64,000 nt of DNA from Caldicellulosiruptor kronotskyensis 2002 (lineage in GTDB: Bacteria > Bacillota > Thermoanaerobacteria > Caldicellulosiruptorales > Caldicellulosiruptoraceae), in contig NC_014720.1 in NCBI RefSeq assembly GCF_000166775.1, positions 2,164,501 to 2,228,500 on the forward strand, in the 5' to 3' direction. Numbering within the stretch: position 1 is the first letter of the stretch; the number at the start of each line of letters is the position of its first letter. The position numbers were made by a program, and so were the translations under genes. The notes below the pieces were generated by a model. That model saw nothing but the letters and a program-made list of their open reading frames with translations, was not told the DNA's origin and ran no database searches. Below, one piece after another: positions 23,622-53,202 of this stretch.

Positions 23622-25691
23622 TTATTCTTCTGGCACAACTGACGGGTCTATTAAGCTCCAGAAAGCAAATTTTGGCTGATAATCTTTGTCAAACAAAAGT
23701 GGAAAATCACCTTGAAGCCATGAATAGTCATCTTTGAGTCCCCAGAACGAAACACTTGTTACTACATTTTTGTATTTTTTGAACACATCAAAAAGATCTT
23801 TTAACTTTCTTGCCTGCTGAATTAAAAGATATCTTTTTGTTTCTTCATCTATGTCTTTGCCATATTCTTTTGCCACACTTATATCAATTTCTGTGACATG
23901 TATCTTAATACCAGGAATGCTGCTAAAAAGTTTTATAGTTTTTTCTACCTCTTCAACGCTTGGCCAGCTTACAGAAATATGGCACTGAAGACCAACACCA
24001 TGAATGGGTATTCCTTTTTCTCTTAGACTCTTTATTAGCTTGTAAATATATTCTCTCTTTACTGGATTTTCTGTGCTGTAGTCATTGTAAAAAAGCTGAG
24101 CGTTAGGGTCTGCCTGATGAGCGTATATGAACGCTTTTTCGATATACTCTGGACCCAATACATTAAACCAGTCACTTCTTCTAAATCCATCTGGCTCATT
24201 TTCATCAATAGCTTCATTTACCACATCCCATGCATATATTCTACCCTTGTATCTTGAAACAACTGTCTGGATATACTTTTTTAGCCTCTCTAAAAGTATC
24301 TTTTTGTCTTTTTCACTATTCGTCAGCTTTTTCCCTGTCTGAGGGTTTTCAAAAAACCAGTTTGGGGTTTGCTGATGCCACACAAGTGTGTGACCACGAA
24401 TAGCTATATTATTCTTTTTGCAGAAATTAAGATACTCATCAGCAATTGAAAAGTTGAAATTGTCCTCTATTGGTTCAAGTGCTTCTGGCTTCATCTCATT
24501 CTCTGCTGTAATGCTGTTAAAATGTCTCTTTATGAAAGCAACATCAACTGGATTTGTCAAAGCCCTGTATGGTACAGCAACACCAATTTTAAAGTAGTTT
24601 TTGTATTTCTCTCTCAAAGAAGGTAAATCTAAATCAGGTACAGCTGAATACCATCCATCATCTGAAATTGTAAAGTTGTCGATATAGTAATAGGAAATAT
24701 CTGAGAGGGGTCTTATGAAAATCACAAAGTCTTTTATCTTTGAATCCAAAGAGGGCGTATAACTTGCAAATACTTCTGTCCACTTATTCTTTGGAATGGT
24801 TACCCTCCCAAGCACAATCTCTCTCATATTCTTTCCACTTTCCAGAAACCTTATACCAACTGCAAAATTTAAACTCTTTAGAATGGATTGATGCATATAA
24901 AAAGATATTGAATAACTTTTCCCCTTTTCAAATGTTCCTTTTACAGGCAAGATAACTGTTGTGTTTTGTCTTTTAACTGTTTGCTGAACTTTTATGCTAT
25001 ATGTACCTTGGTAAGCTTTTTCTTTTGAAATGGATAATTTACATTTTTTATCTTGAGAGATAAATCCTGCTATATTTTTATCTTCAAAGTTTTCAAATTT
25101 TATTAGATGAGATTTGTCAGCAACTTTGAGTGTAAAAAGGTCAACGTAAAAATTTGTGGTTGAGGTTGGTACATATACTTTTAGCCAAACTTTTTTTATC
25201 CCTTTTTCCTCAGTCAAATTTAAACTTGCATCAAGTTTTTTCCAACTTTTTGGAATAATAATTTTTTCACACAGCAGTTTGTTTTCTTTTCCGCTTTTTG
25301 TCTCAATTTCGCTACTCACAACAAAACGCTGCATTTTGCTTGACTTGTGATAAACATATAGAGTAATTTTATATTCATTTGCATAATCTATAAGATTGGT
25401 TACATCAAGCAAAATTCCATCATCTATTTGTTTTCGGCCACTTGCAAGAAGTGAAAAGGTCCCTTCTGCTGCTGTTGTATTGTCAATCCTTAAACTCATA
25501 GATTTTCCTGACGCTTTAAATGGTGCTATAAACCTATTTTCAAAATTATACTCCACAAAACTCTTTTTTGTTTCTCCAATGACTCTACTAATTTTAGTAC
25601 TTTCTATACCAATTAAGGTTACAATCAAAAATAAAATTACTAAAATCAATACTGAAAACCTTTTCAATCTTCTATAAAAGCAACAACTCAC
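23622..25691 (-). CDS. Secreted endo-beta-1,4-xylanase, CBM22-CBM22-GH10
   Basis: A secreted xylan-degrading enzyme of 689 residues. A signal peptide or anchor (residues 10-30) is followed by two CBM22-like modules (about 45-190 and 197-345, each starting with an F/E-rich N-F-E-x segment and ending FYVD or YYIDNF). A GH10 catalytic domain runs from about 355 to 685. Catalytic residues are Glu493 in WDVVNEAID (acid/base) and Glu601 in IHVTEIDIS (nucleophile). HTLVWHQQTPNWF and the FWGLKDDYSW block also match GH10. The start is a GTG with AGGAGG 8 nt upstream. It lies 15 nt after the ROK regulator gene and is last in the XylR-controlled operon. No SLH domain is present. Confidence 0.95.
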   Translation of the reverse strand: MSCCFYRRLKRFSVLILVILFLIVTLIGIESTKISRVIGETKKSFVEYNFENRFIAPFKASGKSMSLRIDNTTAAEGTFSLLASGRKQIDDGILLDVTNLIDYANEYKITLYVYHKSSKMQRFVVSSEIETKSGKENKLLCEKIIIPKSWKKLDASLNLTEEKGIKKVWLKVYVPTSTTNFYVDLFTLKVADKSHLIKFENFEDKNIAGFISQDKKCKLSISKEKAYQGTYSIKVQQTVKRQNTTVILPVKGTFEKGKSYSISFYMHQSILKSLNFAVGIRFLESGKNMREIVLGRVTIPKNKWTEVFASYTPSLDSKIKDFVIFIRPLSDISYYYIDNFTISDDGWYSAVPDLDLPSLREKYKNYFKIGVAVPYRALTNPVDVAFIKRHFNSITAENEMKPEALEPIEDNFNFSIADEYLNFCKKNNIAIRGHTLVWHQQTPNWFFENPQTGKKLTNSEKDKKILLERLKKYIQTVVSRYKGRIYAWDVVNEAIDENEPDGFRRSDWFNVLGPEYIEKAFIYAHQADPNAQLFYNDYSTENPVKREYIYKLIKSLREKGIPIHGVGLQCHISVSWPSVEEVEKTIKLFSSIPGIKIHVTEIDISVAKEYGKDIDEETKRYLLIQQARKLKDLFDVFKKYKNVVTSVSFWGLKDDYSWLQGDFPLLFDKDYQPKFAFWSLIDPSVVPEE

Positions 25692-25705: not shown

Positions 25706-26905
25706 TCATGCATATTCTGGAAAAGAAAGCATGTCGGAAATCACCATAGCTATACATCCCAGCACCACAGCTCTGTCTTTTAGTTTTGAAACCTCTATCT
25801 TAAGATTATAAAACTGGGCGATAAAGGATCTCTGGTTAATTACTTCCCTCAATTTTTCTAAAAACAACTCTCCAAAAAATGATGCCTTATTACCTATAAT
25901 TACCATTTCAGGATTAAAAATATTTACAAGATTTGCCACGCCTATCCCCATCTTTTCAGCAACCTCAAGTATAGCCATCCTGCAAACTCTGCTTCCTTCT
26001 TTTGCTGCTTGTATTATCCGAGAAGGAGTGATTTCATGTACATTTTCACAGCTTATATACCTATCCTCTACTCCTTGTTTTACAAGCTTTTTGATAACAC
26101 TCAAAAGTGCCCTCTCGGATGCAAAGTTCTCAAGACAGCCAATATTGCCACAGCTGCAAACATCGTCCTGAAAGTTGATAGTGGTATGTCCAACTTCACC
26201 TGCAAATCCTGCAGCACCTCTGAAAAGTTTGTTGTCGATAATAATTCCTGCACCAAGCCCAATTCCAACACTCAAATAAATCAAATCACTAACTTTTCCC
26301 CACTCACCAAACCACTTTTCGCCCAGTGCTCCTGCATTTGCTTCATTGTCAATATAAACAGGGAGGTTGAATCTTTGCTGAACAATTGATTTTAAGTGAA
26401 CATTTTTCCACTTCAAATTTGGAGCAATAAGCACAATACCAGACTCTTTTTCCACAATACCTGGAACACCAATTCCTATACCCAAAATTCCTTTTGGTGT
26501 GTGCGGAGCCCTATCTATTGCTTTTTCAATTAGGTCAAAAAGAAGATCAAAAAGTTTGTCTTTGTCCTCCCCCATCTTCATTTCTGCATATTCTTCAAAA
26601 ATAACCTCACCAACAAAGTTTGAAAGAATAACATGAATATAGTCAACACCCAAATCAATTCCTATGATTGAACCTACATCCTTATTCACCTGCAAAAGTA
26701 CAGGTCTTCTTCCACCTTTTGACTTACCATATCCTTTTTCTACTATATACCCTTCTTTTATAAGCTCATCTGTGAGGTTTGAGACTGTTGCTTTATTTAA
26801 ATCCACAAGCCTTGATATTTTCGCGCGGGATATTATTTTATTGTCCAAAATTGTTTTCAAAACCAAAAGCTTATTTATTTGTTTTAACAGCGTGTGGTTA
26901 CCCAT
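25706..26905 (-). CDS. xylR: ROK-family transcriptional repressor (XylR type)
   Basis: 399 residues: an N-terminal winged helix (residues 10-60, RAKISRLVDLNKATVSNLTDELIKEG), then a ROK sugar-binding fold with GIDLGVDYIHV, IGIGVPGIV, DNEANAGALGE, and the zinc/inducer motif GEVGHTTIN with CSCGNIGCLEN. The XylR name is inferred from context: it sits in an operon with a xylanase, and a palindrome shared with xylA lies in front of that operon. A TATAAT at 26943-26948 may provide a weak internal promoter. NagC-type regulators have the same architecture, so the inducer is not proved. Confidence 0.88.
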   Translation of the reverse strand: MGNHTLLKQINKLLVLKTILDNKIISRAKISRLVDLNKATVSNLTDELIKEGYIVEKGYGKSKGGRRPVLLQVNKDVGSIIGIDLGVDYIHVILSNFVGEVIFEEYAEMKMGEDKDKLFDLLFDLIEKAIDRAPHTPKGILGIGIGVPGIVEKESGIVLIAPNLKWKNVHLKSIVQQRFNLPVYIDNEANAGALGEKWFGEWGKVSDLIYLSVGIGLGAGIIIDNKLFRGAAGFAGEVGHTTINFQDDVCSCGNIGCLENFASERALLSVIKKLVKQGVEDRYISCENVHEITPSRIIQAAKEGSRVCRMAILEVAEKMGIGVANLVNIFNPEMVIIGNKASFFGELFLEKLREVINQRSFIAQFYNLKIEVSKLKDRAVVLGCIAMVISDMLSFPEYA

Positions 26906-26997: not shown

Positions 26998-27825
26998 TTA
27001 TCCTTTTACTGCACCTGCCATCATACCTTTTATAATTTTGTCCTGACCCAAAATATACGCAATCAACATTGGCAAAAGCGATAATGTTAAGAATGCCATG
27101 ATAGCTGGTATGTCTGAACCATACCTTGCCTGAAAATCCCAAATACCAAGTGGGAGTGTCCTTTTATCTGGCGAACTTGTTAATACTAAAGCAAAAACAA
27201 ACTCGTTCCAAAGATATGTCCCATTGTATATCCCAACTGTAATTAAAGCAGGTCTCGAAAGAGGAAGAAGGATATCAGAATACAATCTAAACATGGAACA
27301 GCCATCTATTTTAGCTGCTTCTTCAAGCTCAAAAGGAATCTCTCGCATAAACTCTGTCAGGATAAATATTGACATAGGCAAACTTAATGCTACATACGGC
27401 CCAATTAATGCAAATATAGTATCATATAACTTAATTTTATTAGTAAGAACATAAATTGGGATTAAAGTAACATGAATAGGAATTGCCATTCCTGCAATTA
27501 TAAGAGAATACAATATATTATTCAGAGAAAATTTCATTCTCGCAAATACATACGCTGCCATTGAAGATATAATAAGTATTAAAATTACTGAAATTGAAAC
27601 TGCAATAACACTATTTTTGAGGTAGTTAAAAAAACTACCATGAATTACAGTTGAATAGTTTCCAACAGTAGGCTGTTTTGGTATTTGCCATGTGTTACCT
27701 TCAAGTAGCTCTGATTGTGTTTTTATAGACGTAAAAAACATAAACAAAAATGGCACATCTGCAACTAATGTCCATATAGCTAAAAATATGAAATACCATT
27801 TTTTAATTTCTTTTGCAAAACCCAT
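26998..27825 (-). CDS. Carbohydrate ABC transporter permease, MalG/LacG type
   Basis: 275 residues with six hydrophobic segments and the EAA cytoplasmic loop (ELEEAAKIDGCSMFRLYSDILLPLSRPAL) that contacts the ATPase. The C-terminal GAVKG tail is typical of MalG-type permeases. AAGGAGG precedes the ATG. It is the third gene of the xylan operon, after the binding protein and the MalF-type permease. No ATPase gene is in the operon, so a shared MsiK-like ATPase elsewhere is expected. Substrate inferred: xylo-oligosaccharides. Confidence 0.9.
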   Translation of the reverse strand: MGFAKEIKKWYFIFLAIWTLVADVPFLFMFFTSIKTQSELLEGNTWQIPKQPTVGNYSTVIHGSFFNYLKNSVIAVSISVILILIISSMAAYVFARMKFSLNNILYSLIIAGMAIPIHVTLIPIYVLTNKIKLYDTIFALIGPYVALSLPMSIFILTEFMREIPFELEEAAKIDGCSMFRLYSDILLPLSRPALITVGIYNGTYLWNEFVFALVLTSSPDKRTLPLGIWDFQARYGSDIPAIMAFLTLSLLPMLIAYILGQDKIIKGMMAGAVKG

Positions 27826-27862: not shown

Positions 27863-28765
27863 TTAAGCTTCTTTTTTCTTTGTCGCAAAATATGCTAAAA
27901 TTCCTGCTGTTGTAATTATTATGAACATTGCCGAAGCAATTGTGCTGCCATATCCCATCTTAAATGAGGCAAAAGCGTTTTTATACATATAAGTTGCCAT
28001 GAGTTCTGTTGCGTTTGACGGTCCGCCCTCTGTCATAACATAAATCAAATCAAAATATTTAAGAGAACCAATCAAGGATAAAATACAAGCAGTCTTTATG
28101 GACGGGGCTAAAAGAGGAAGTTCTATTTTCCAAAAATACTGACCTTGTGTTGCCCCGTCTATTCTTGCTGCTTCGTAAAGTTCATGAGGAATGTTAGAAA
28201 TTGCAGCTATAAAGAATATCATGTAAAAAGGTATATATTGCCAACATATAACAGCAACAACAGAGTAGAAAGCTACATTTGGATCACCCAGCCAATCTTG
28301 ATTTAAAAAGTCAAGGTGTAAAAAGTTAAGTATTCCAGCTAAAAGCCCAAATGATGGATCATATATATATTTAAATAGTACACCAATCGCCACTGATGAC
28401 ATTAACATTGGAAGATAAAACAGTGACTTAAATGCATCAAACTTTTTGCCACCTCTATCAAGCATTACTGCTATCAATATTGCAATTGGCATTTCGATTA
28501 TTATAGATAAAAATATAAATTTAATATTATTACCAAATGCGTGCCAAAATATCGAGTCATGTATAAGATCAATCCAGTTTTTAAAACCAAGATATAATTT
28601 TCGAGGAGAAACACCATCCCACTCGTACATACTGAGGTCAAAAGACATTATTATTGGCCAAATTATATAAACTCCAATAAGAATTAAAGCGGGAGCCAAA
28701 AACAATAAAATGCCTAAATTTTGCATTAGTTTTGATGCCTTATCTCTCTGCAATTTTAACTTCAC
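27863..28765 (-). CDS. Carbohydrate ABC transporter permease, MalF/LacF type
   Basis: 300 residues, membrane-spanning. It has the EAA loop ELYEAARIDGATQGQYFWKIELPLLAPS and the GGPSNATELMATYMYKNAF segment typical of the UgpA/LacF branch. It pairs with the downstream MalG-type permease (37-nt gap). The GTG at 28765 overlaps its only Shine-Dalgarno-like sequence (GGGGAG); a TTG four codons in would have normal spacing, so the N-terminus is uncertain by a few residues. Confidence 0.88.
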   Translation of the reverse strand: MKLKLQRDKASKLMQNLGILLFLAPALILIGVYIIWPIIMSFDLSMYEWDGVSPRKLYLGFKNWIDLIHDSIFWHAFGNNIKFIFLSIIIEMPIAILIAVMLDRGGKKFDAFKSLFYLPMLMSSVAIGVLFKYIYDPSFGLLAGILNFLHLDFLNQDWLGDPNVAFYSVVAVICWQYIPFYMIFFIAAISNIPHELYEAARIDGATQGQYFWKIELPLLAPSIKTACILSLIGSLKYFDLIYVMTEGGPSNATELMATYMYKNAFASFKMGYGSTIASAMFIIITTAGILAYFATKKKEA

Positions 28766-28884: not shown

Positions 28885-30192
28885 TTACTTCTTGAAATAT
28901 TCCTTAGCAGCTTTCTCCATTTTTTCTGCAGCAGCTTTTGGTGTAATTGTCAAGCCAAAGAGAGATTGCACAATATCCTTATGAGTCTCTGCAAGTTGTG
29001 GTGGAAGGTATTGATCCCACCAAAGCTGAATACTCTTTGCTTTTGAAATTACATCATAAACTTTTTGTAGCATTGGATCTGTAAATTTTAATCCTTTTAC
29101 AGGTGGAATTTGACCATAGTTAATTCTCTCTTTTACTGCCTGATCATCAATCAAGTATTGAATCATATTGAATGCTTCTTTTGGATACTTACATGTAGTT
29201 GTCACAGCATAGTAGTTTGAAGACGCCATTCCAACTAAACTTGTTGGATCTCCTTTCCCACCCTTAATCGACGGGAATGGGAAGAAATCAAGATTCTTTT
29301 CATAAAATTCTTTCTTTTCAGCCTTTACTATAGGTATCTGCCAAGTTCCCATTAATTCCATTGCAGCTTTTCCAGAGTATAAAAGCATTCTTGATTGTCC
29401 CGTATCCCAGTCAAGTCCATTAAATCCTTTTGGGAATGCTCCCATTTTGACCAAATCCTGAAGCATCTGACCTGCTTTTACAAACGGTTCATCTGCAAAG
29501 CTACCACCTGTTCTCTCAGCAGCTTTTTCAAACGCTGAAGCACCACCTAATTTATTTACCAAATTCCAATACCAGAAACAACCAGGCCATTTTGTTTTAT
29601 TAGCAAGAGTTATCGGAGTTATTCCTTTTGATTTTAATACCTTTACAATATTTAGAAACTCATCATAAGTCGTTGGTACTTTCAAATTGTATTTTTTGAA
29701 TATTTCCTTATTGTACCATACAAGCGCAACACCAGCGCCTTCAACTGGAACTGCCCATATCTTATTGTTATAAGTAATTGGGCCAAATGCTGCATCAACA
29801 AATCTGCTCTTATAATTTTTCTCGTTCATATAAGCTGTAATATCTTTTACCTTACCAGCCCTTACATATTCAAAGAAAGGACCACCACCCCATGTAACAA
29901 ATACATCTGGTGCCTGGTTAGAACCCATAGCAATTTTTAATTTTGTCTTGAATGAATCATTCTGTAGTGGAACAACTTCAACCTTAAAGTCTGGATGCGC
30001 TTTCAAAAATCTGTTTACTTGGTTTTGAATCATTTGCTTTCCGACAGCATCAGTTGTGATGTGCCAAAATACAATCTTTTTTGTTCCACCAGCTGAGCTG
30101 AAAGCCTTTTCAGATGGTGAAAAAACTAAAACTAAGCTCAACATAAAAACAACCAAAGTTACCAACGCTACAATTCTTCCAAGCCTCTTCAC
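28885..30192 (-). CDS. Extracellular sugar-binding protein, family 1 (xylan operon)
   Basis: 435 residues. An N-terminal signal segment (RIVALVTLVVFMLSLVLVFS) is followed by a family 1 solute-binding fold (KKIVFWHITTDAVGKQMIQNQVNRF, VPTTYDEFLNIVKVLKSKGITPITLA). No lipobox cysteine is evident in the signal. The GTG start has AAAGGAG about 11 nt upstream. As first gene of the operon with xylR and a xylanase, behind a XylR-like operator, it probably binds xylo-oligosaccharides or xylose (inference). Confidence 0.9.
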   Translation of the reverse strand: MKRLGRIVALVTLVVFMLSLVLVFSPSEKAFSSAGGTKKIVFWHITTDAVGKQMIQNQVNRFLKAHPDFKVEVVPLQNDSFKTKLKIAMGSNQAPDVFVTWGGGPFFEYVRAGKVKDITAYMNEKNYKSRFVDAAFGPITYNNKIWAVPVEGAGVALVWYNKEIFKKYNLKVPTTYDEFLNIVKVLKSKGITPITLANKTKWPGCFWYWNLVNKLGGASAFEKAAERTGGSFADEPFVKAGQMLQDLVKMGAFPKGFNGLDWDTGQSRMLLYSGKAAMELMGTWQIPIVKAEKKEFYEKNLDFFPFPSIKGGKGDPTSLVGMASSNYYAVTTTCKYPKEAFNMIQYLIDDQAVKERINYGQIPPVKGLKFTDPMLQKVYDVISKAKSIQLWWDQYLPPQLAETHKDIVQSLFGLTITPKAAAEKMEKAAKEYFKK

Positions 30193-30208
30193 ATTACACC
30201 ACTCCTTT

Positions 30209-30231
30209 TGGTTTATTTATTAAACAAACTA
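30209..30231. promoter_or_regulatory. XylR-like operator in front of the xylan operon
   Basis: A palindrome centred at T30220. The right half TAAACAAACTA is identical to the xylA operator. The left half differs at two positions (an A to G and a G to A change). It lies between a weak TATAAA-type -10 region and the ribosome site of the binding-protein gene, where a bound repressor would block transcription. Confidence 0.75.
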
Positions 30232-30432
30232 TTTATATATTTCGCTGCAAATTTTAAAACTCCTTCTTCGATTTTTTAATCTTTTGTTAATTAATATTAA
30301 ATAATTTGTCATTTCTCAATATATTTTTGTTGTATTTTTATTAGCTTTTATAATGAAATATGTAACTTCATTTTGTTAAATGCTAACAATTTCAAATGAG
30401 CTTTTGAAGCTGATTTTTTTGTTGAAATGTTT

Positions 30433-34477: not shown

Positions 34478-34536
34478 ACCCAACCCTGCACACCTATCCA
34501 TCTCACTTAGAGATTGGACGGTGCGCAAGGTGGGCA
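34478..34536 (-). other. Imperfect GC-rich stem-loop between pullulanase and the X25-like gene
   Basis: Minus-strand CCCACCTTGCGCACC can pair imperfectly with GGTGTGCAGGGTTGGG across about 25 nt. It follows the pullulanase stop by about 15 nt with no U tract. It is unusually GC-rich for this genome. Confidence 0.4.
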
Positions 34537-34548
34537 AATAATCTTGCT

Positions 34549-37500: not shown

Positions 37501-37959
37501 TACAACGATTGTATTAAGACCATCAATAAAAGCTGTCATTTTTGGAGTTTTCTGAGGCTGAGATGTATAGATTTGCTCTTCACCTTCTATCAGCCAAACC
37601 TCTTTTGAACCGCTGATTCCTGAGATGAACCTGTCAACAGCAACATCTTTTGCTTCCCAGTTACCTTTTCTAACTATGATACCTACTTTTGTCACCTTTC
37701 CAGGAAGTTCAACTACTGCTTTTACACCAAAGTCATCTTTGGAAGTAAACTCATAAGCTTTGCCTTCTGCACCGACTGGCTCAACAGGCCATATCCACAA
37801 ATTCCAGCCTTGATAGTCTTCATTGTACCTGTAATAGTGGATGATGAGAGTTGTCTTTTCATTTGCTCTTAAAATAGAAATTGGAAAAATAAGAGTAGCA
37901 ATAAACAAGAATGTTACTAAACCAGCTATAAAACGTTTGCCTTTAAAATAGCTTATCAT
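34549..37959 (-). CDS. Secreted type I pullulanase (GH13) with N- and C-terminal binding modules
   Basis: It hydrolyses alpha-1,6 links of pullulan and branched starch outside the cell; 1136 residues. A signal peptide ([20 protein letters not shown]) is followed by a CBM41-like module ([21 protein letters not shown]), further beta domains, and the GH13 barrel. The type I signature YNWGYDP is near residue 566. Catalytic residues are the Asp in GFRFDLMA (near 685), the Glu in IYGEGW (near 714) and the Asp in VSAHDN (near 801). The last 120 or so residues ([20 protein letters not shown]) look like a CBM20-type module. The ATG at 37959 has GGGAGG 8 nt upstream; the longer frame to 38004 lacks one. 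A consensus promoter precedes it. There is no SLH domain. Confidence 0.93.
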
Positions 37960-38074
37960 CTTTCTTACCTCCCAGCAAATTTGATAAGATTTTAAAACAA
38001 TCACAAATAAATAATAAATTTAAAAATCAAAAATACAATTTATTAATGCAAAGGTTTGCTTTTACTTTGTAATG

Positions 38075-38103
38075 ATTATATATCTTTTCATTAACATTGT
38101 CAA
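38075..38103 (-). promoter_or_regulatory. Consensus SigA promoter for the pullulanase gene
   Basis: Minus strand: TTGACA (38098-38103), 17-bp spacer, TATAAT (38075-38080). Both hexamers are perfect matches. The leader is about 110 nt. Confidence 0.82.
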
Positions 38104-38159
38104 TATGCTGCAATTTGAATAAATTAAAGACTTGAATTTATGAAAAGTAAATAAAAAAG

Positions 38160-38186
38160 GCAGTCTCCACTCACTGTGAAGACTGC
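38160..38186 (-). terminator. Terminator after the SLH protein gene
   Basis: Minus-strand GCAGTCTTCAC with GTGGAGACTGC around a 5-nt loop, then CTTTTTTATTT. It isolates the pullulanase gene from upstream transcription. Confidence 0.85.
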
Positions 38187-38218
38187 GTATAGAAAAGTTG
38201 CAAAATTTATTTTACTTT

Positions 38219-39862: not shown

Positions 39863-39883
39863 TACTAAAATCCTCCTTTTAGG

Positions 39884-39889
39884 ATTATA
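39884..39889 (-). promoter_or_regulatory. Possible -10 box for the SLH protein gene
   Basis: TATAAT on the minus strand 22 nt before the ATG and just ahead of AAAAGGAGG. It would give a very short leader. The -35 region is poor. Confidence 0.35.
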
Positions 39890-39910
39890 GCCTTATAAAA
39901 CCTTTAAAAT

Positions 39911-39945
39911 CTGCCCGGCAACCACTAAAAATAGTTGCCGGGCAG
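39911..39945 (-). terminator. Terminator-like hairpin after GH53
   Basis: Perfect 12-bp stem CTGCCCGGCAAC with GTTGCCGGGCAG, 11-nt loop. It is followed on the minus strand by ATTTTAAAGG, a weak U tract. Confidence 0.7.
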
Positions 39946-39953
39946 TTAAAACC

Positions 39954-42900: not shown

Positions 42901-43208
42901 GCAAAAAGGTTTGTATAAACATCTCCCAAATCAATCTTCAGCCAATGAATGCCTGCATCCTGTGCACTCCAAAAAGTAGTCTCATCACCGTCATTTGCAA
43001 GGGTTGCCGGATTTGTTGGGGCTTCACTGTCAGAAAAAATATTTTTGCCCACAGCTATATCAGTACCAATTGGGTCAACTTTTATCCCAATTTGCTTCTT
43101 TACCTGAGCTGAATTCTGGGCTAAGACCTTGGTTGGCAACAAAGGAAAAGCAAAAGTAAAAGAAATGACAAAAATGAGCAATACAAAAATGGTAAATACT
43201 CTTTTCAT
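39954..43208 (-). CDS. Secreted multimodular arabinogalactan endo-beta-1,4-galactanase (GH53)
   Basis: It cuts beta-1,4-galactan side chains of pectin. It has 1084 residues from the ATG at 43208 (GGGG with ribosome-like spacing; a longer frame to 43271 has none). Modules in order: signal peptide; an F5/8-type discoidin/CBM32-like domain (about 40-165, LANDGDETTFWSAQDAGIHWLKIDLG); GH53 catalytic domain (about 170-530; acid/base Glu in VQVGNEVNGG, nucleophile Glu in IVIAETAY; WIRLRIWNDP and LLLDFHYSDFWADPGKQ typical). Then two copies of an Ig-like (Big_4) plus CBM61-like pair (NLIQNPGFEEDLTGW ... and NLVKNYSFEEGLKYW ...), and a short C-terminal beta domain. It lies downstream of the LplABC-type importer. 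Confidence 0.92.
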   Translation of the reverse strand: MKRVFTIFVLLIFVISFTFAFPLLPTKVLAQNSAQVKKQIGIKVDPIGTDIAVGKNIFSDSEAPTNPATLANDGDETTFWSAQDAGIHWLKIDLGDVYTNLFATEVVFNGNGSYQYKIEYSIDDNRWTVLVDKSNNSDTSQTQYDKFIPPASGIRYIRVTITSTPNNEPASIKELKVYRMVDDTFIKGADVSMLKQIEDCGGKFYLNRVQMDALEILKYFGVNWIRLRIWNDPKDADGNPLGGGNCSAENMLVIAKRAKALGMKLLLDFHYSDFWADPGKQDKPKAWANLSFDELKQAVYQYTYDVIKMYKDQGALPDMVQVGNEVNGGMLWPDGKTWGENAGGYDNFAELLKAGIRGVKDAAGPDNQVKIMIHLANGGDNELYRRVFDNLTQRGVEFDVIGLSYYPYWHGKLSDLIYNMNDISKRYNKEIVIAETAYAYTLENGDGLNNIFGTREAATAGYDPSVQNQALVIRNIANALAQVPDGKGLGIFYWEPDWIPVEGAGWKTGEGNGWDNQAMFDFNGNTLDSLYVFKMLNNIMIVGYKPVVVGTAPGEMPKLPAKITAILSNGLTKEVDVTWDSIDPSKYAQAGSFEVYGYVEGSEVTPVAKVKVANLIQNPGFEEDLTGWNIEGQTGAANANSSAPVRSGNKKLNIWYNSPYNLVISQTITGLGQGKYTLKAWFVNTGSAQKRDIVIKDYGGQEIRIQIPQSASWDAWTPAEINDINVTTGKCTISFEIAADSGFWCAIDDVLFYRQDPDIEKNIVSVQRLDITTEVGQKPQLPPTVMVVYDDDTSSEANVTWEAIDESKYSAIGEFTVTGTVEGTTLKAYAKVKVINSKNLVKNYSFEEGLKYWISEGNTNAVKTESGGHSGTAQLTHWSDKPYKVVTYQTIENIPNGIYIFRAFANGGGGQNANYLFVKDYGGEELRINMPTKWVAEWHRMVIANIKVTTGRVTIGLYSDSENAGGTWCNLDDVEFFKVADSEFEISNTSLQKDKGLIASVTVKQSEGIQHDGREVVVFELLKGTTPVSIVAVEKDVVEAEDFKAYFNVSDYLSTDYRVKVFVFDKFDTSLSVPNSLAEPVDLR

Positions 43209-43329
43209 TTTTTGTTCCACCCCTTTATTGTCGTTTAAAAGCAGGCAAGAACTTGTTTCAAAAATTTGCATTTCACAACAAGTTACTTTATATTTAATTT
43301 ATAAAAATCCTTTATGCTCTATTTTCTAT

Positions 43330-43359
43330 CTAAATTAGCGTAGACTAAATTAGTGTAGA
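43330..43359. repeat. Tandem 15-bp direct repeat upstream of GH53
   Basis: CTAAATTAGCGTAGA (43330-43344) followed directly by CTAAATTAGTGTAGA (43345-43359), one mismatch. It lies 120 bp upstream of the GH53 start. Direct repeats are a common form of AraC-family binding site, so this may be a target of the YesN-type regulator at 48.9-50.5 kb (inference). Confidence 0.5.
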
Positions 43360-43404
43360 GGCTACCAGCAAACCATCCCGCTCTTCTGATCACTGGTAGC
43401 CTCT
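43357..43404 (-). terminator. Stem-loop after the LplA-type binding protein gene
   Basis: Perfect 12-bp stem AGAGGCTACCAG with CTGGTAGCCTCT, 24-nt loop, beginning 29 nt past the stop. No U tract follows, so termination may be partial with read-through into GH53. Confidence 0.55.
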
Positions 43405-43432
43405 TTCCTTTTCAAAAAACTATTCTATAAAT

Positions 43433-45022
43433 CTACTGATTTCTCTCCCTGAAGTACTGTTCAAGTTGTCTGAGTGCCTCAGCTTTAACCTTGTCAACAC
43501 CAGCTGCTTTGAGCTTCTTGTCAAGTGTTGCAAATGCTTCATCCACGTTCTTTACCATACCCAAACATATTGGATTATAATACTGTGTCATAACGCTATT
43601 AAGGTTTGCAATCTCTGTTTTTACCTTTGTCTGGTCAAGTGAGAATGAAGACAGTGGTGAGCTTACAAGTGCCTTCTTGATTGTGTTTCTGAGTGCAATG
43701 TAGTTATCATCCCAGCTTGCAAGTGGTAAGAACTGGTCTTTATTTGTGAACCAGAACCCTGCAGCATCTGGTGGATAAGTGTTGTTATCTGCTGTAACAC
43801 CTTTTGGCAAATCAATTTTGTTGTTTTTGATTATATAATTCTTGCCCTGAATTCCAAAGTAAACAAGATAGTTATAGGACTTTTCTTCCATAATCAGGTC
43901 AAGTGCCATAAGTGTTCTTTCAGCGTTTTTTGTCTTTGCAACAAGAGCAACACCATTGTTTATATATGGGTCTGCTGGTCTGTGTCCTCTTCTATCGAAT
44001 ATTGGGATAATCTCAACTTTCCAACCCTTGGCTTTTGCATTTGCAAGATTTGATTGTATATCTTGGCTGTTTCCAAATGCAACTGCAGACTTTCCTTGGT
44101 CAAACGCATCCTTGCTTCTTACTTTGTTAGCATAAGCGTTTCTGTTGATATATCCCTTGTCATACCATGACTTTACCTTCTCTGCTGCCTCTTTGAATGC
44201 AGGAAGTATTTCCTTATCCATAATATAGTAAACTTTTGGTTTTGTATCATATATTGTTGTGAAAAGTCCTGTACCGCCTGTTGATACTCTTGCAACATCT
44301 TCTAAGTAATCTGTTTTTTCAACCAAAAGTCTCCACATAACTGAGTTCAAATCATACTGGTTGTCCAAGTTCATTGGCATCATGCCTTTTTCATTCTTCT
44401 TTACTGCAGCAAGGAACGGTTCAATGTCATTATACTTTTTGATTGGTGGCAGCTTATATTTTTCTCTCAAATCTCCTCTTAAAATTACAACATCAGCTTT
44501 TCTGTCGGGTGTTGCAGTCGGAATCATGTAAATCTTGCCTTTTACCTTTGCCTCCTGCCATGCAACAGAAGGTGTTGCTTTGTAGTGTCTTGGCATGTAT
44601 TTTTTGATCATATCCATTGTTAGTTCCTTAAATCCACCTTTTGCAGCTTCCTGGAAGTAGAAGCACCAGTTTGCTGCGTACATCCAGTCAACATTTTCTC
44701 CAGATGCCAAAATAAGCGGATATTTGTAGTTCAAATCTCCCCATCCAATGTAGTTAATCTCCATTGTTGCGTTGATATCTTTTTGAAGCTTTTTGTTGAG
44801 TTCTTTCATAACGTTTGGAAATTCAGCCGGTGCATCACCTAAAAGATAACCAACAATCTTGACAGGTTTTGACACATCAATGCTCGGATCAAAACCGGGT
44901 GCAGTTCTTTTCGCCTTTGTTTGCGCACCAAAACCAACCACAAACATTGAAACTAAAACGGTCGAAAGTACAAAACATACTGTCAAAATGAACGATAAAA
45001 GCCTGAAGTTCTTTTTCATCAC
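43433..45022 (-). CDS. LplA/YtcQ-type extracellular oligosaccharide-binding protein
   Basis: 529 residues. An N-terminal signal (residues 6-32) without a clear lipobox is followed by a large type-2 solute-binding fold (KIVGYLLGDAPAEFPNVMKELNKKL, NRNAYANKV, and a long C-terminal DUF3502-like part). This subfamily pairs with LplB/YtcP permeases and imports uronate- or pectin-derived oligosaccharides in other Firmicutes. Here, next to GH53, galacto-oligosaccharides are the likely ligand (inference). GGGAGG lies upstream of the GTG at 45022; the next codon ATG is also possible. Confidence 0.9.
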   Translation of the reverse strand: MMKKNFRLLSFILTVCFVLSTVLVSMFVVGFGAQTKAKRTAPGFDPSIDVSKPVKIVGYLLGDAPAEFPNVMKELNKKLQKDINATMEINYIGWGDLNYKYPLILASGENVDWMYAANWCFYFQEAAKGGFKELTMDMIKKYMPRHYKATPSVAWQEAKVKGKIYMIPTATPDRKADVVILRGDLREKYKLPPIKKYNDIEPFLAAVKKNEKGMMPMNLDNQYDLNSVMWRLLVEKTDYLEDVARVSTGGTGLFTTIYDTKPKVYYIMDKEILPAFKEAAEKVKSWYDKGYINRNAYANKVRSKDAFDQGKSAVAFGNSQDIQSNLANAKAKGWKVEIIPIFDRRGHRPADPYINNGVALVAKTKNAERTLMALDLIMEEKSYNYLVYFGIQGKNYIIKNNKIDLPKGVTADNNTYPPDAAGFWFTNKDQFLPLASWDDNYIALRNTIKKALVSSPLSSFSLDQTKVKTEIANLNSVMTQYYNPICLGMVKNVDEAFATLDKKLKAAGVDKVKAEALRQLEQYFRERNQ

Positions 45023-45053
45023 AAAATCAACCTCCCTGATTCATTTTAATCTA

Positions 45054-45087
45054 TACCAACAGGCATTATAAAAAGCACCTGTTGATA
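45054..45087 (-). other. Stem-loop between LplC-type permease and binding-protein genes
   Basis: Minus-strand TATCAACAGG pairs with CCTGTTGGTA (one G-U) around a 14-nt loop, in the 73-nt gap before the binding-protein start. No U tract immediately follows. Confidence 0.6.
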
Positions 45088-45095
45088 CCATTTTC

Positions 45096-45974
45096 TTAAC
45101 CCTTCACAGCACCAAGTGTAATGCCTCTGACAAAATACCTTTGAACAAACGGGTACAAGAAAATTATTGGGCCTGTTGCAACAACTGTCATTGCAAGTTT
45201 TAAAGACTCTTTGGGCATATCAATTCTAACCACATTCTGCAGAATATTTGCCGCAACATTGACACTTGACAGGATTAAATACAATGTATACTGTAGAGGA
45301 TACAAGCTCTGTTTCTCGATGAACATCATCGGCGTCCACCAGTCGTTCCAGTAATTGAGAGCTATAAAAAGTCCAATAGATGCCAAAGCTGGTTTTGAAA
45401 GTGGCAAAACAATTCTCAAGAATATTGTAAAATCTCCTGCGCCGTCAATCTTTGCTGACTCTATCAAAGAGTCTGGAATAGAACCTCTGATAAAGTTGCG
45501 CAAGATTAAAATGTAAAACACATTGAAAAGTGGCACAAGTATCAGAACAAGTACGTTGTTTTTCAAATGATAGTAATTTGCCAATATTATATAGTACGGA
45601 GCAAGACCGCCGTTAAAAAGTGTTGTGAAGTACAGGAAAAAAGCCAATGCATTTCTATATTTCACATCTTTTCTGTACATAACATACGCAGCCATTGTGG
45701 AAAGAAACAACGACAAGCTTGTACCAACGCTTGTCACTATAATGGTTACCAAGTAAGCTCTGAAAATTCTTTGAGGGTTTTGGAAGATGAGCTTGTATGC
45801 ACTGAGTGAAAATTCTCTTGGAATTAGAGTGTAACCGTGATTTATGATATAGTTTTCTGAAGCAAATGAACTTACAACAAGCGCAACAAAAGGTATGAAA
45901 GTAAATAGTCCGATTATTGTTATGAATATATATCCGACAATGTTAAAGAGGATATAATCCTTACCCTTTCTCAA
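45096..45974 (-). CDS. ABC transporter permease, LplC/YtcP type
   Basis: 292 residues with six hydrophobic segments and the EAA loop SLIESAKIDGAGDFTIFLRIVLPLSKPAL, ending GITLGAVKG. It begins with TTG, with GGGGAG 6 nt upstream, 26 nt after the LplB-type gene. It forms the inner-membrane channel with the preceding permease. As in the other two importers of this window, no ATPase gene is linked. Confidence 0.9.
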   Translation of the reverse strand: MRKGKDYILFNIVGYIFITIIGLFTFIPFVALVVSSFASENYIINHGYTLIPREFSLSAYKLIFQNPQRIFRAYLVTIIVTSVGTSLSLFLSTMAAYVMYRKDVKYRNALAFFLYFTTLFNGGLAPYYIILANYYHLKNNVLVLILVPLFNVFYILILRNFIRGSIPDSLIESAKIDGAGDFTIFLRIVLPLSKPALASIGLFIALNYWNDWWTPMMFIEKQSLYPLQYTLYLILSSVNVAANILQNVVRIDMPKESLKLAMTVVATGPIIFLYPFVQRYFVRGITLGAVKG

Positions 45975-46000
45975 TGTTATCTCCCCTTTTATGTCAAGAT

Positions 46001-46921
46001 TTAGAACAGTGCATAGTCTTTATCATATCTTCTGACTATCCAGTTGACAAACATTATAATTACAAAGCACAGCACAGACTGATAAGCACCTGCTGCTGAC
46101 GCCATTCCAATATCCTGAACCTGCATGAGACTTCTGAATACAAGAGTGTCTATAATATCTGTATAGTCAAGCAAAAGACCGTTATTACCTATTATCTGAT
46201 AAAACATATCAAACTCGCCACGCAAAATTCTTCCAAGTGCAAGCAAAATCAATATTATCATTGTCGGTTTTAACATCGGGATTGTGATATAAAAGATTCT
46301 CTGGAAGATATTTGCACCATCAATTATTGCTGCCTCATAACATTCTTCGTCAAATCCCATTATAGCTGCAAGATATAAAACGCTTCCGTAACCTACCCAC
46401 TTCCATACATATAACATTGGCAAAAGGAAATACCAGTAAGTAGGATTTGAGTAGATATCTATAGGCTCACCACCAAGGTTTTTTATCAAGGTGTTAATAA
46501 GACCATAATCATAGTTGAAAAAGTTATACATCATAGCTGCCACAACAACCCATGATACAAAATATGGTAAAAACATTACAGACTGGATGAACTTTTTAAA
46601 GATTTTACCTGCAAGCTCGGCTATAAAAATTGCGCAAGCGACTGAAAATACTGTGTACGCAGCTAAAAAAGCTATGTTGTAAAGAATAGTGTTTTTTGTG
46701 ACAAGCCAAGCTCTGCCCGAAGCAAAGAAATACTCAAAGTTTTTGAAACCGTTCCATGGACTGAAAAGTATTCCGTCTCGATAGTTGAACTCTTTAAAAG
46801 CAAGAACAATTCCACCCATCGGTATGTAGGCAAACAGAATGTAGTAAATTGCTACTGGTAAGAACATGGCATAAAGTACCTTGTTCTTTTTTATTTCATA
46901 CCAAAAACCGTTCTTTTTCAA
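46001..46921 (-). CDS. ABC transporter permease, LplB type
   Basis: 306 residues, membrane-spanning. It carries the EAA loop CYEAAIIDGANIFQRIFYITIPMLKPT and the subfamily's QSVMFLPYFVSWVVVAAMMYNFF segment, ending with RRYDKDYALF. It starts with TTG preceded by GGGAG at 9 nt. It is the first gene of the importer operon; the two-component genes upstream end at their own terminator. Confidence 0.9.
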   Translation of the reverse strand: MKKNGFWYEIKKNKVLYAMFLPVAIYYILFAYIPMGGIVLAFKEFNYRDGILFSPWNGFKNFEYFFASGRAWLVTKNTILYNIAFLAAYTVFSVACAIFIAELAGKIFKKFIQSVMFLPYFVSWVVVAAMMYNFFNYDYGLINTLIKNLGGEPIDIYSNPTYWYFLLPMLYVWKWVGYGSVLYLAAIMGFDEECYEAAIIDGANIFQRIFYITIPMLKPTMIILILLALGRILRGEFDMFYQIIGNNGLLLDYTDIIDTLVFRSLMQVQDIGMASAAGAYQSVLCFVIIMFVNWIVRRYDKDYALF

Positions 46922-46982
46922 TTTCTGCCACTCCCTTTGTAGTGATTGAACAAATCATTTATTTTCGCTTCTTCTATTTCTT

Positions 46983-46988
46983 ATTATA
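46983..46988 (-). promoter_or_regulatory. Probable -10 box for the LplBCA/GH53 unit
   Basis: TATAAT on the minus strand about 62 nt upstream of the LplB-type start, after the kinase terminator. The -35 region is poor, as is usual for promoters needing an activator. Confidence 0.45.
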
Positions 46989-47067
46989 AAAGGTCAGTTT
47001 GAAATTCATATCAGACAAAATTAATATTTTCTTTGTAAAATTAAGATGATAAAAATTGCAAAAAATA

Positions 47068-47093
47068 AAAGCTGGTCTTTCAAAACCAGCTTT
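47068..47093 (-). terminator. Terminator after the YesM-type kinase gene
   Basis: Minus-strand AAAGCTGGT with ACCAGCTTT, 8-nt loop, then TATTTTTTG. Confidence 0.82.
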
Positions 47094-47142
47094 CATCTCT
47101 TTTTGAGCATTGTAAGGAGAAAAAATTAAAATGCTGCTATGG

Positions 47143-48927
47143 CTATTCTTCCACAGGAAACAGCACCTTTGCAACTGTTTTCTCGTTTATTTTGCTCTCG
47201 TAAAACAGTCCAGCTTCATTTCCAAAATAGATTTTTAACCTTTCGTTTATATTTTTTATACCAAAACCATGTCCTTTTGACGTCTCAACCTCTCCCTTTT
47301 TTATCTTTTCAAGAACTTGCTTACTTATTCCAACACCATCATCAATAACATATATCGCAGCCATTTTGTCATCTATTATTTCGCCTTTTATGATTATTGT
47401 ACCTTTCTGCTCCTCTTTTTCCAAAATTCCATGGTGAATAGAATTTTCAACAAGCGGCTGAAGTGTCAGTTTAGGAATGCGTGCTTTGAGAAGTTTTTGT
47501 GGAACATCTATCTTAAGGTCAATGCAGTTGTCAAACCTGTAATTTTGAATCATCACATAGGCTTTTACATGTTCTATCTCATTTTCCACTGTTACAACAT
47601 CCTCACCCTTGCTAAGACTTAATTTATAAAACTGAGAAAGAGAGGTTACAAGCCTTGAAATATCTTCATTCTTGTTCTTAATTGCAATCCAGTTTATAAG
47701 GTCAAGGGTGTTGTACAAAAAATGAGGATTTATCTGTGACTGAAGAGCTTTTAGCTCTAAATTTTTCTTCTCCTTACCAAGCTGGTACTGCTCATGCAAA
47801 AGTTCTTTTATCTTTTTTAGCATATAGTTAAAGGTATATATGAGCTGCCCCACCTCATCTTGAGAGTGGGAATCCAATTCTATATTGAAATCACCTTTTT
47901 CGATAACCTTTTTCATATTATGAGTAAGTTTTTTAATTCTTGATGTGCTTGAGGTCGCTGCCCAGAAAGCAAATATCAATGTAAAAGGTGTAATCAAGAA
48001 TATCATGAAAAATACTTGTTTAATAGTCTTTATATTAAGCTCATGAATCTCTTTGTAAGGTGTAACCAGTACAAGATACCAATCTGTATCACTAATACTC
48101 CTCGTTCGAACAAGAAGTTTCTCACCCCCTACCTCCATTTCAACAACATTTGCCTCTTGAGATGATATATTCTTTTCTATTCCTTTTATTATCTCCCCAA
48201 TAGATAAATTTGCTCTATTTAAAGAACGTGCAACCACTTCTCCATTTGAATTGACAATAAAAGCAAGTGTTCTGCTTGTAAACAAAGCCTGATTTAGTAT
48301 CCTTTCAATTTCAGCAATTGAGATATCAGCTCTGATCGCAGCTCTGTATTCACTAATATTCTTAGGGTCTGGAATCAGTCTTATCAAAGACACAACATCT
48401 TTTCGCGCAACATTTATCATTTTTGGGGTCACCCAAGCAAAAAGCTCCCCTTTTAAAACCATCTGCTGATACCATGGAAGCTTTTCAATCCTTTCAAAAA
48501 GAAAATAGCTATCTGTCTCGCTGAGTTTTGCCAATCCCTGTGTCATATAAATTGAGATGCTTAGTATGTCAAAATTTTGGCATGTGCTGTAAAAAAGTTT
48601 TGTAAATCTCTGGGAGTCTACAAGCCAGTTTCCTATGTTTTCGTAGTAATAGTCATCCGGTCTGTTTACAAGCTCTTGCACAGTTGAATCAAGAGCTAAA
48701 ATGTTCAGGACATTTTTGACTGATGAAACCCTGTTTTCTAAGAAAGAAGCTGTCTGGTCCACAATCTTGCCAGAAGAATAAATAGCCTGTTTTTCGACAT
48801 CCCTTCCAACAATAACATAGTTCATAAAAGAAAATATACCAAATGATATTAAAATCACAAACATATATGAAGCAAACAATTTGTATTTTATACTCATATT
48901 TGAAAAAGTATTTGTAATTCTTTTCAT
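47143..48927 (-). CDS. YesM-type sensor histidine kinase
   Basis: 594 residues. Two membrane segments (about 16-36 and 295-315) enclose a Cache-like extracellular sensor domain, followed by a HAMP linker. The His_kinase motif ALQSQINPHFLYNTLDLINW has the phosphorylated His, and the ATPase domain has LVENSIHHG and DDGVGI plus KGHGFGIKNINERL. The ATG overlaps the response-regulator stop by 4 nt (ATGA). It probably senses galactan or pectin sugars for the importer downstream (inference from position). Confidence 0.93.
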   Translation of the reverse strand: MKRITNTFSNMSIKYKLFASYMFVILISFGIFSFMNYVIVGRDVEKQAIYSSGKIVDQTASFLENRVSSVKNVLNILALDSTVQELVNRPDDYYYENIGNWLVDSQRFTKLFYSTCQNFDILSISIYMTQGLAKLSETDSYFLFERIEKLPWYQQMVLKGELFAWVTPKMINVARKDVVSLIRLIPDPKNISEYRAAIRADISIAEIERILNQALFTSRTLAFIVNSNGEVVARSLNRANLSIGEIIKGIEKNISSQEANVVEMEVGGEKLLVRTRSISDTDWYLVLVTPYKEIHELNIKTIKQVFFMIFLITPFTLIFAFWAATSSTSRIKKLTHNMKKVIEKGDFNIELDSHSQDEVGQLIYTFNYMLKKIKELLHEQYQLGKEKKNLELKALQSQINPHFLYNTLDLINWIAIKNKNEDISRLVTSLSQFYKLSLSKGEDVVTVENEIEHVKAYVMIQNYRFDNCIDLKIDVPQKLLKARIPKLTLQPLVENSIHHGILEKEEQKGTIIIKGEIIDDKMAAIYVIDDGVGISKQVLEKIKKGEVETSKGHGFGIKNINERLKIYFGNEAGLFYESKINEKTVAKVLFPVEE

Positions 48928-50489
48928 ACGTAATACCTCTCTCTAAATTCAGATGGAGTCATGCCAACCTTCTTTTTGAACAAGGATGAGAAATAATTCG
49001 GGTCTCCAAATCCAACTCTCTCTGCAATCTCATATAGCTTGATGCTATTATCTTTTAAAAGCTGCTTGGCTTTTTCAATTCTGACTTCAGTTATATAATC
49101 GTTGAGTGTCTTACCAGTTGCTTTTTTGAACATACTACATAAATAGTTTGGACTAAAGTAAAAGTAGTGAGCAATTTTTTGGATGCTAAGTTCTTTGTCA
49201 TAAAAGTTTTCTTCAATGAATTTCACTATCTGATAAGCCTTTCTGTTCAAATTCCCGCGTGTTTCAAATATCTCAAATATTCCGTCAATGGTCTCATAAA
49301 CAACCTCTTTTACTTGGTTTAAGGTAAGCTTTTGTTCAATTTCACGCCATTTTTTAGATCTTCCATCTTCATCTAAAAGCTGTGTTATCTTTCTTTGTTT
49401 GCCCACTTGGTACACAATCAGTATCATCTCAAAAAACAAATTTTTAACCTTCTCTACATCAATGGTTTGGTTTGATTTTAGCCAAAAATACAGCTTTTCA
49501 ATTTCCTCCTTAGCCTTTTTTATCTCATCCCTTCTGAGATACTCTTCAAATCTCTCAAAGTCAAAATTGACTTCTTCTGCTTCCCTTTTATTTTCAAAAG
49601 CTTCGTATGTATACAAATCGCCAAAACCGTTATAAAATACATTTTTCTGTAGCATTTTGATTATATTCTCAACATGTTCTTTTATCTCATTTGCTCTTAT
49701 TGAATACACAATAGCAAGAGAAACTTCCCCTTTTTGCGAAAAAGCCTCTTTGAGGATATCTACTGCCTTTCGGGTATCAATTTCTCTTTTATTGTTACAA
49801 ATAAGAACAAAGCTGTTTGGAGACAAAAATGCAAAAAGTGCTGCAATTTTAGATGTAAAGTCTTTGCCTAAAAATCCATTGTATAAATCTTTTGATACAA
49901 TTTCATTCATGTGTTCTTCTTCGGACTGCCAATTTACAAATCCAACAATAACATCTAAGTTTGAATTTAAAAAATCTTCAGCGTTGTATTTTTGAAAAAT
50001 GCTGAGGTCAGGATGATCTGTTAGCAGCTGCTGAATAAGCTGTGTGCAAATATAGGATAGACTTTGGTTGTAGTGCTCTTTCAATTTTTCTCTTTCTTCC
50101 TCTCCTTTTCTCTCAACTTCAATTATCTCAACAACTTTTTTCATGGTACTTATAATCTTCTCTATATTGAGAGGTTTTTCTATGTAGTCAATTGCATTTA
50201 GACGAATGGCCGATAAAAGATACTCCTTTTCAGCATATCCACTGATAAACACTATTTTGCATTTTGGGAAAATACTTTTTAATCTCTTTGAAAACTCTAT
50301 ACCATCCATTCGCGGCATTCTTACATCGCACAGGAGAATATCTGGAGTGTAACTTTTTACAATTTCTAAAGCTTCTTGACCATTTTTAGCACTCTTAATT
50401 TCTCCAATCCCAAGCTCATCCCATGGTATCAATGTCTCAAGACTTTCTCTTGTTATCCTCTCATCTTCTACAATCAAAAGTTTAAACAT
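48924..50489 (-). CDS. YesN-type response regulator with AraC DNA-binding domain
   Basis: 521 residues. A receiver domain (residues 1-120) has the phospho-acceptor Asp55 in LLCDVRMPRMDG and the conserved Lys in YIEKPLN. A long helical middle part and a C-terminal AraC HTH pair (IVKFIEENFYDKELSIQKIAHYFYFSPNYLCSMFKKATGKTLNDYI ... RVGFGDPNYFSSLFKKKVGMTPSEFR) follow. It starts at the ATG at 50489, with GGGAGG about 11 nt upstream; the longer frame starts with a TTG inside that ribosome site. It is the first gene of the regulator-kinase pair and likely activates the LplBCA/GH53 unit. Confidence 0.93.
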   Translation of the reverse strand: MFKLLIVEDERITRESLETLIPWDELGIGEIKSAKNGQEALEIVKSYTPDILLCDVRMPRMDGIEFSKRLKSIFPKCKIVFISGYAEKEYLLSAIRLNAIDYIEKPLNIEKIISTMKKVVEIIEVERKGEEEREKLKEHYNQSLSYICTQLIQQLLTDHPDLSIFQKYNAEDFLNSNLDVIVGFVNWQSEEEHMNEIVSKDLYNGFLGKDFTSKIAALFAFLSPNSFVLICNNKREIDTRKAVDILKEAFSQKGEVSLAIVYSIRANEIKEHVENIIKMLQKNVFYNGFGDLYTYEAFENKREAEEVNFDFERFEEYLRRDEIKKAKEEIEKLYFWLKSNQTIDVEKVKNLFFEMILIVYQVGKQRKITQLLDEDGRSKKWREIEQKLTLNQVKEVVYETIDGIFEIFETRGNLNRKAYQIVKFIEENFYDKELSIQKIAHYFYFSPNYLCSMFKKATGKTLNDYITEVRIEKAKQLLKDNSIKLYEIAERVGFGDPNYFSSLFKKKVGMTPSEFRERYYV

Positions 50490-50607
50490 TTTTATTGTCT
50501 TTCCTCCCAACAGAGAAAAAAGTTAATCTTGCACAACTTTTTGAAGACTTTCTACTTGAATATTATACACCATGTGAACTCTTTAAGTAGCTAAAAAAAT
50601 AAAAAAA

Positions 50608-51751: not shown

Positions 51752-53068
51752 TTATTCAGTGAACATATATTTATTTAAAATCATCTCAAGGAGTTCTTGC
51801 TTGCCAGATTTATTTTCTATCTTGTCAAGAGACAGAGCATATTCCTCTAACATCTTGAAGTTTGCTTCACCGCTTACAATCTTAGCACCGATTCCTTCTT
51901 TGTAGCTCTTGTATCTCTCATCTATAAATTTATCAAATACGCCATCTTTAACAAGCTTATACGCAATCTTGAAGCCTTTAGCAAAAGCATCCATACCTGC
52001 AATATGACCAATTACTAAATCTTCAAGCTCAAATGAACCTCTTCTTACCTTTGCGTCAAAGTTAAGTCCACCTTTGCCAAAACCACCAGCTTTAATAACC
52101 TCATACATAGCAAGTGTAGTAAGTCTTACATCTGTTGGAAACTGGTCTGTATCCCAGCCCAAAAGCAAGTCGCCCATATTAGCGTCAATTGAACCAAGCA
52201 TATTATTTATTCGTGCAAACCTCAGCTCATGATGGAAATCATGTCCTGCCAAGGTTGCATGGTTTACTTCTATATTGAGCTTGAAATACTTGTCAAGATC
52301 ATATTTCTTCAAAAATCCATAAACATGAGCCGCATCAAAATCGTACTGATGCTTAGTTGGCTCTTTTGGTTTTGGTTCTATTAAAAACTGTCCGTCAAAA
52401 CCTATTTCCTTTGCATACTCAACTGCCATATGCAAAAATCTTGCAAGGTTATCAAGTTCCAATCCCATATCTGTATTTAGAAGTGTCTCATAACCTTCTC
52501 TTCCGCCCCAGAACACATAGTTTTCGCCGCCAAGCTCTTTTGTAACCTCTAAAGCCTTTTTCACCTGCGCTGCTGCATATGCAAAGACATCTGCATTGCA
52601 GGATGTTGCAGCACCATGAACATATCGTGGATGCGAAAACAGGTTTGCTGTCCCCCATAATACTTTTGTCTTGCTGGTTTTCAAATACTCTTTTATTAAA
52701 GAAACAATCTCATCCAAATTCTTATTTGACTCTTTTAAATTTTCCCCTTCAGGTGCAATATCTCTGTCATGGAAGCAGAAAAATGGTACATCTAACAGTT
52801 CAAAAAATTCAAATGCTGCCTCAACCCTTGCTTTTGCGTTGTCCATTGGGTTTGAAAACTTATCCCAAGGACGAACAATTGTAGGTTGTCCAAACGGATC
52901 GCTTCCTGTTGCACAGAATGTGTGCCAGTAAGCAATAGCAAAACGAAGGTGGTCTTTCAAAGACTTGCCGTCAATGATTTCGTCAGGATTGTAGTACTTG
53001 AAAGCAAATGGGTTGTCCGACTGTGGACCTTCGTATTTTATTTTTGGAATATCTTTGAAGTACTTCAT
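51752..53068 (-). CDS. xylA: Xylose isomerase
   Basis: It converts D-xylose to D-xylulose, feeding xylan sugars into the pentose phosphate pathway. The 438 residues match class II enzymes. The catalytic [12 protein letters not shown] (His and Asp), the metal ligand region [18 protein letters not shown], and [33 protein letters not shown] with further ligands are present. AAGGAG precedes the ATG. The promoter carries the XylR-like palindrome over the start site. No xylulokinase gene is beside it. Confidence 0.97.
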
Positions 53069-53143
53069 TTTATAAATTCACACTCCTTATATAATATATA
53101 ATTTTTTGACTAAATCTTATTTTTAAAACATGCCATACACATA

Positions 53144-53170
53144 CTTAGTTTGTTTATTAAACAAACTAAG
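53144..53170. promoter_or_regulatory. XylR-like operator over the xylA start site
   Basis: Perfect 27-bp palindrome: arm CTTAGTTTGTTTA, centre T, then the exact complement of the arm. It begins 4 nt downstream of the xylA -10 box, so a bound repressor would cover the transcription start. The core recurs at 30209-30231 in front of the xylan operon that contains the ROK repressor gene. Confidence 0.85.
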
Positions 53171-53173
53171 TTT

Positions 53174-53202
53174 ATTATAATATATATTCTCCACTTTTTC
53201 AA
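53174..53202 (-). promoter_or_regulatory. SigA promoter for xylA
   Basis: Minus strand: TTGAAA (53197-53202), 17-bp spacer, TATAAT (53174-53179). Confidence 0.8.

Follow-up and report, generated by a model that had tools for sequence, protein, structure and literature searches.

Two XylR operators in the C. kronotskyensis genome

Two palindromic sites in the window, by which we mean the whole 64,000-nucleotide stretch of Caldicellulosiruptor kronotskyensis 2002 DNA that was analysed, are almost certainly operators for XylR, a ROK-family repressor whose gene lies at 25706-26905, with xylose as the probable effector that relieves repression. One of them lies at 30209-30231, in front of a xylo-oligosaccharide transporter operon, and the other at 53143-53171, in front of the xylose isomerase gene xylA. 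This two-site regulon is correct but already published: comparative genomics combined with RNA-seq assigned two loci to XylR in Anaerocellum (Caldicellulosiruptor) bescii, xylA and xynUVW-xylR-xynA (PMC8579813, 2021), and the operators themselves have been given as tagtttgtttaataaacaaacta (xylA) and tagtttgtttaagaaataaacca (xynUVW) (PMC12285236, 2025). The raw sequence confirms a compact two-site regulon in these biofuel-relevant thermophiles, and shows that the regulon published for A. bescii holds for C. kronotskyensis as well. Three small points are new here: the arms of the xynU site are asymmetric, a third candidate site before msmK is statistically weak, and one published binding assay may have been affected by a hairpin artefact. 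The relevant features of the window are as follows.

53174..53202, minus strand: xylA promoter, -35 TTGAAA (53202-53197), 17-nt spacer, -10 TATAAT (53179-53174)
53143..53171, no strand: XylR operator of xylA, a perfect palindrome of 29 bp with the same core as the operator published for A. bescii
53146-53168: conserved core of the xylA operator, TAGTTTGTTTATTAAACAAACTA on the plus strand
51752..53068, minus strand: xylA, xylose isomerase (TIGR02630, 753 bits, cut-off 533)
30232..30237, minus strand: probable -10 hexamer TATAAA of the xynU promoter, from the alignment, directly abutting the operator; -35 not clear
30209..30231, no strand: XylR operator of xynUVW-xylR-xynA, -10-proximal arm perfect, two changes in the RBS-proximal arm
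28885..30192, minus strand: xynU, sugar-binding protein of an ABC transporter (PF01547, 142 bits)
27863..28765, minus strand: xynV, permease (profile match)
26998..27825, minus strand: xynW, permease (PF00528)
25706..26905, minus strand: xylR, ROK-family repressor with an N-terminal helix-turn-helix, a ROK domain and the zinc-type motif CSCGNIGCLE
23622..25691, minus strand: xynA, GH10 xylanase (PF00331, 355 bits) with CBM_4_9 domains (PF02018)

The xylA operator and its promoter

On the minus strand, the xylA promoter reads TTGAAA-17-TATAAT (53202..53174) and matches the consensus at 11 of 12 positions; 2-3 nt beyond it comes ACTTAGTTTGTTTA-A-TAAACAAACTAAGT. The sequence-only reading had described a perfect 27-bp palindrome 4 nt beyond a -35/-10 pair. 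The palindrome is indeed perfect and the promoter pair is a good one, but the symmetry extends further, to arms of 14 nt each and 29 bp in total, and the distance from the -10 hexamer is 3 nt to the 27-bp palindrome and 2 nt to the full 29 bp. The xylA start lies 77 bp downstream of the operator core. In 20 random sequences of equal length and first-order composition, the longest arms with a loop of 0-1 were 8-11 nt, as compared with 14 nt at xylA. The only longer palindrome in the window is found at 33252-33289 (GTTTTTTTAACTGCTTC...); it is perfect, has 19-nt arms and looks like a bidirectional terminator.

A palindrome of this kind could also act as RNA, either as a terminator or as a 5' stabilising hairpin, rather than as a binding site for a protein. 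A terminator scan does list 53143-53171 as terminator-like on the plus strand, and the single strand folds well under DNA parameters; however, no plus-strand gene ends just upstream of it, xylA being on the minus strand, and the predicted minus-strand start falls inside the palindrome, so that the full hairpin would not be transcribed. Moreover, the copy at xynU folds poorly (-2.3 kcal/mol), yet its sequence is kept, and the orthologous DNA binds purified XylR (PMC12285236). We consider an RNA element at this position extremely improbable. It is also very improbable that control by the site extends to, or is mainly directed at, the divergent gene at 53330, which encodes an HTH_17/Amphi-Trp protein, together with its MFS neighbour: that gene does start about 160 bp from the site, and most xylA loci have the same neighbour, but the operator adjoins the -10 hexamer of xylA, and the published regulon at this locus consists of xylA only (PMC8579813, PMC12285236).

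The xynU operator and the operon behind it

The second site, TGGTTTATTTATTAAACAAACTA, had been described as a near copy of the first with two mismatches in the left arm and an identical right arm, and this is what the sequence at 30209-30231 contains. The hexamer abutting it, TATAAA here, reads TATAAT in several relatives. The GTG start codon of xynU lies 16 bp beyond the operator and is preceded by a ribosome-binding site, AAGGAG, at 30202-30207. Profile matches also bear out the gene content proposed for the operon, i.e. a binding protein, permeases, a ROK regulator and a GH10 xylanase. Since the gap between xylR and xynA is 14 bp, and a minus-strand terminator scan from xynW to xynA returned nothing except a weak match inside xynA, xylR and xynA are likely to be transcribed together. 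Between xynU and xynV, at 28810-28856, there is a near-perfect hairpin with a 20-bp stem, whose stem is kept in some relatives with a different sequence, a pattern that would suit an RNA element adjusting how much binding protein is made relative to permease.

XylR and its orthologs

The product of xylR has a winged helix-turn-helix at its N-terminus, matched by PF13412 over residues 11-54 (23.1 bits, gathering threshold 21.9), and then a ROK domain, matched by PF00480 over residues 81-389. Its translation contains the stretch VCSCGNIGCLE, which corresponds to the ROK zinc-type motif CxCGxxGCxE and is conserved in 12 orthologs. The closest solved structures are those of Lmo0178 and other ROK regulators, including a chain named XylR protein. 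For comparison we used 12 genomes of the genus, the present one included, and found XylR orthologs in all of them at 70-100% identity. The genome designated G002 is apparently A. bescii or nearly so, because the sequence flanking its xylA agrees with the probe published for A. bescii. At 94% identity to the G002 protein, the regulator described here is an ortholog of the A. bescii XylR that has been tested by experiment, and the location of palindromic operators with TAGTTTGTTTA arms at promoters of xylose and xylo-oligosaccharide genes fits its assignment as XylR.

The A. bescii system comprises the regulator Athe_0617 and operators at xylA (Athe_0603) and xynUVW (Athe_0614). The regulator, both target loci and the core of the xylA operator are the same here, the latter letter for letter, and the xynUVW operator differs at one central base. 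Other differences concern the outer positions of the palindrome and the distance between xylA and xynU, which is 23 kb here, about 15.7 kb in G002 and 15 to 33 kb among the relatives. Further afield, the XylR proteins of Bacillus subtilis and Geobacillus stearothermophilus are ROK repressors with very similar motifs and 43% identity to A. bescii XylR (PMC12285236); Bacillus XylR controls xylAB and xynPB, whereas the published A. bescii scheme places xylulokinase under XynR. The xylose-responsive ROK repressor XylR of Thermotoga maritima, 33% identical to A. bescii XylR, also acts on xylan and xylose genes (PMC8579813), but its regulon is far larger than the two loci of the present genome.

Two sites in the genome

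We searched the whole genome (2,843,785 bases, one contig) by pattern and listed the genes downstream of the matches; the sequence-only reading had proposed such a listing from a matrix scan. Only two sites with three or fewer mismatches were found, the xylA and xynU operators, and both stand at promoters of xylose or xylan genes; the reversed control pattern gave no match genome-wide at the same threshold. At this threshold the motif, far from being common and unrelated to sugar genes, is restricted to the two known loci. In the window, the same threshold gave two matches, as compared with none in 100 dinucleotide-preserving shuffles.

A looser pattern, AGTTTGTTTANNAAANAAACNA, again with up to three mismatches, gave 36 matches as compared with 43 for the reversed control. 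We set its weaker matches aside as background; besides the two operators, most of those with a listed context lie inside long reading frames. The match at genome position 1486683 is not credible as an operator, as it is situated in a many-copy dispersed repeat and is also seen in one relative. This intergenic repeat (genome positions 1486562-1486902) has at least two parts, at approximately 34-140 and 178-328 of the query, and is matched in 11 of the 12 genomes, with dozens of matches in some and 41 in G003.

Conservation across the genus

A xylose isomerase scoring above the family cut-off is present in 8 of the 12 genomes, and in all eight the 23-bp core before xylA is unchanged and perfect. 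The promoter block is kept in the other seven as well, with a few changes in the -10 region. Conservation among the relatives is limited to these central 23 bp; the flanking bases vary, and therefore the 29-bp outer symmetry of the present genome is not a conserved feature. No match to classical xylA above the family cut-off was obtained in G003, G007, G008 and G011. All four of these genomes have nevertheless kept xylR and the xynU operator, and they carry the xynU site only, with the exception of G007, where a dispersed repeat contains a further match with three mismatches.

The xynU operator core is present in all 12 genomes and is slightly imperfect in each, with a G-to-A/C-to-T change in one arm; not one of the 12 has a perfect xynU site. 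Which arm is changed follows the presence of xylA: in the eight genomes with xylA the arm adjacent to the -10 hexamer is perfect and the one adjacent to the ribosome-binding site is changed, whereas the four genomes without xylA have the change in the -10-proximal arm.

A larger regulon would result if the weak XylR half-site before msmK, the gene for a shared transporter ATPase, were functional, as XylR would then control all oligosaccharide uptake. The sequence AAGTTTGTTTAAAAAATCAATAG is found about 90-110 bp before msmK and is identical in all 12 genomes, and in A. bescii a low-scoring site was reported at this gene, whose expression rose 3- to 4-fold on xylan and on cellulose (PMC8579813). 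Against this, the matrix score of the msmK site (taken from G000, G001, G005, G006, G007 and G008) is 4.2, as compared with 27.8-36.5 for the accepted sites, and chance alone would give about 47 scores of this size per Mb; in addition, nearly the whole region upstream of msmK is conserved, so that conservation of the site itself says little. We judge this extension of the regulon unlikely and keep to the two operators at xylA and xynU.

Binding data and a possible assay artefact

That XylR-type ROK repressors bind such palindromes, which the sequence-only reading had given as known, is borne out by purified A. bescii XylR, which bound both sites in biolayer interferometry (BLI) and the xynUVW site in FP (Kd 165 nM); the perfect xylA site gave no XylR signal in FP and was detected by BLI only (PMC12285236). 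We observed that the labelled strand of the xylA FP probe can form an 11-bp hairpin of -8.4 kcal/mol, as compared with -2.3 kcal/mol for the xynUVW probe (DNA parameters). If the strand folded on itself while the probe was annealed, this might partly explain why FP gave no signal; we offer this as inference only, because the BLI probe for xylA, which has the same sequence as the FP probe, did bind.

A model for repression

Transcription beginning about 7 nt past the -10 hexamer would start inside each of the two operators, as is common where a repressor acts by blocking RNA polymerase. We infer for this strain that XylR binds there, that the operators overlap the start sites and that xylose is the inducer. 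In the absence of xylose, a XylR dimer would occupy the 23-bp palindrome overlapping the predicted starts of xylA and of xynUVW-xylR-xynA, and the bound protein would block RNA polymerase. Entry of xylose, the probable effector, would release XylR, and the xylo-oligosaccharide transporter, XylR itself, one xylanase and xylose isomerase would then be made. In A. bescii, transcription start sites have been mapped, XylR sites are located within 5' UTRs or on top of promoter elements, from which repression was concluded, and RNA-seq shows higher expression of xynUVW and xylA on xylan, xylose and cellulose (PMC8579813); the effectors of XylR could not be determined biochemically (PMC12285236).

The proposal that one ROK regulator governs uptake, xylan cutting, isomerisation and its own synthesis agrees with the XylR regulon published for Caldicellulosiruptorales (PMC8579813, PMC12285236), with the cutting limited to one xylanase. 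XylR is only a part of the control of xylan use and not its master regulator, because in A. bescii the LacI-family regulator XynR controls most xylanases, beta-xylosidase and xylulokinase (PMC12285236). The assignment of xynA itself differs between the two studies, being to XynR in PMC8579813 (Table 3) and to XylR in PMC12285236. XynR-type sites in the window numbered 12 at one or no mismatch, with 13.2 expected, none standing above chance; these matches are thus no evidence for XynR action in the window.

The perfection of the xylA site and the imperfection of the xynU site raise the possibility, in our view a rather doubtful one, that the two operators are tuned to different strengths. If so, the transporter would be derepressed earlier than the isomerase, and XylR would feed back on itself through the weaker xynU site. 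The exact borders of the operators are of practical use, since the A. bescii xylA promoter is employed as a xylose-inducible promoter (PMC12285236).

The DNA between the two operators, at 33785-50510, encodes a pullulanase-like protein, a GH53 protein with Big_4 domains, an SLH protein, an ABC transporter and a pair consisting of a His kinase and an AraC-type regulator.
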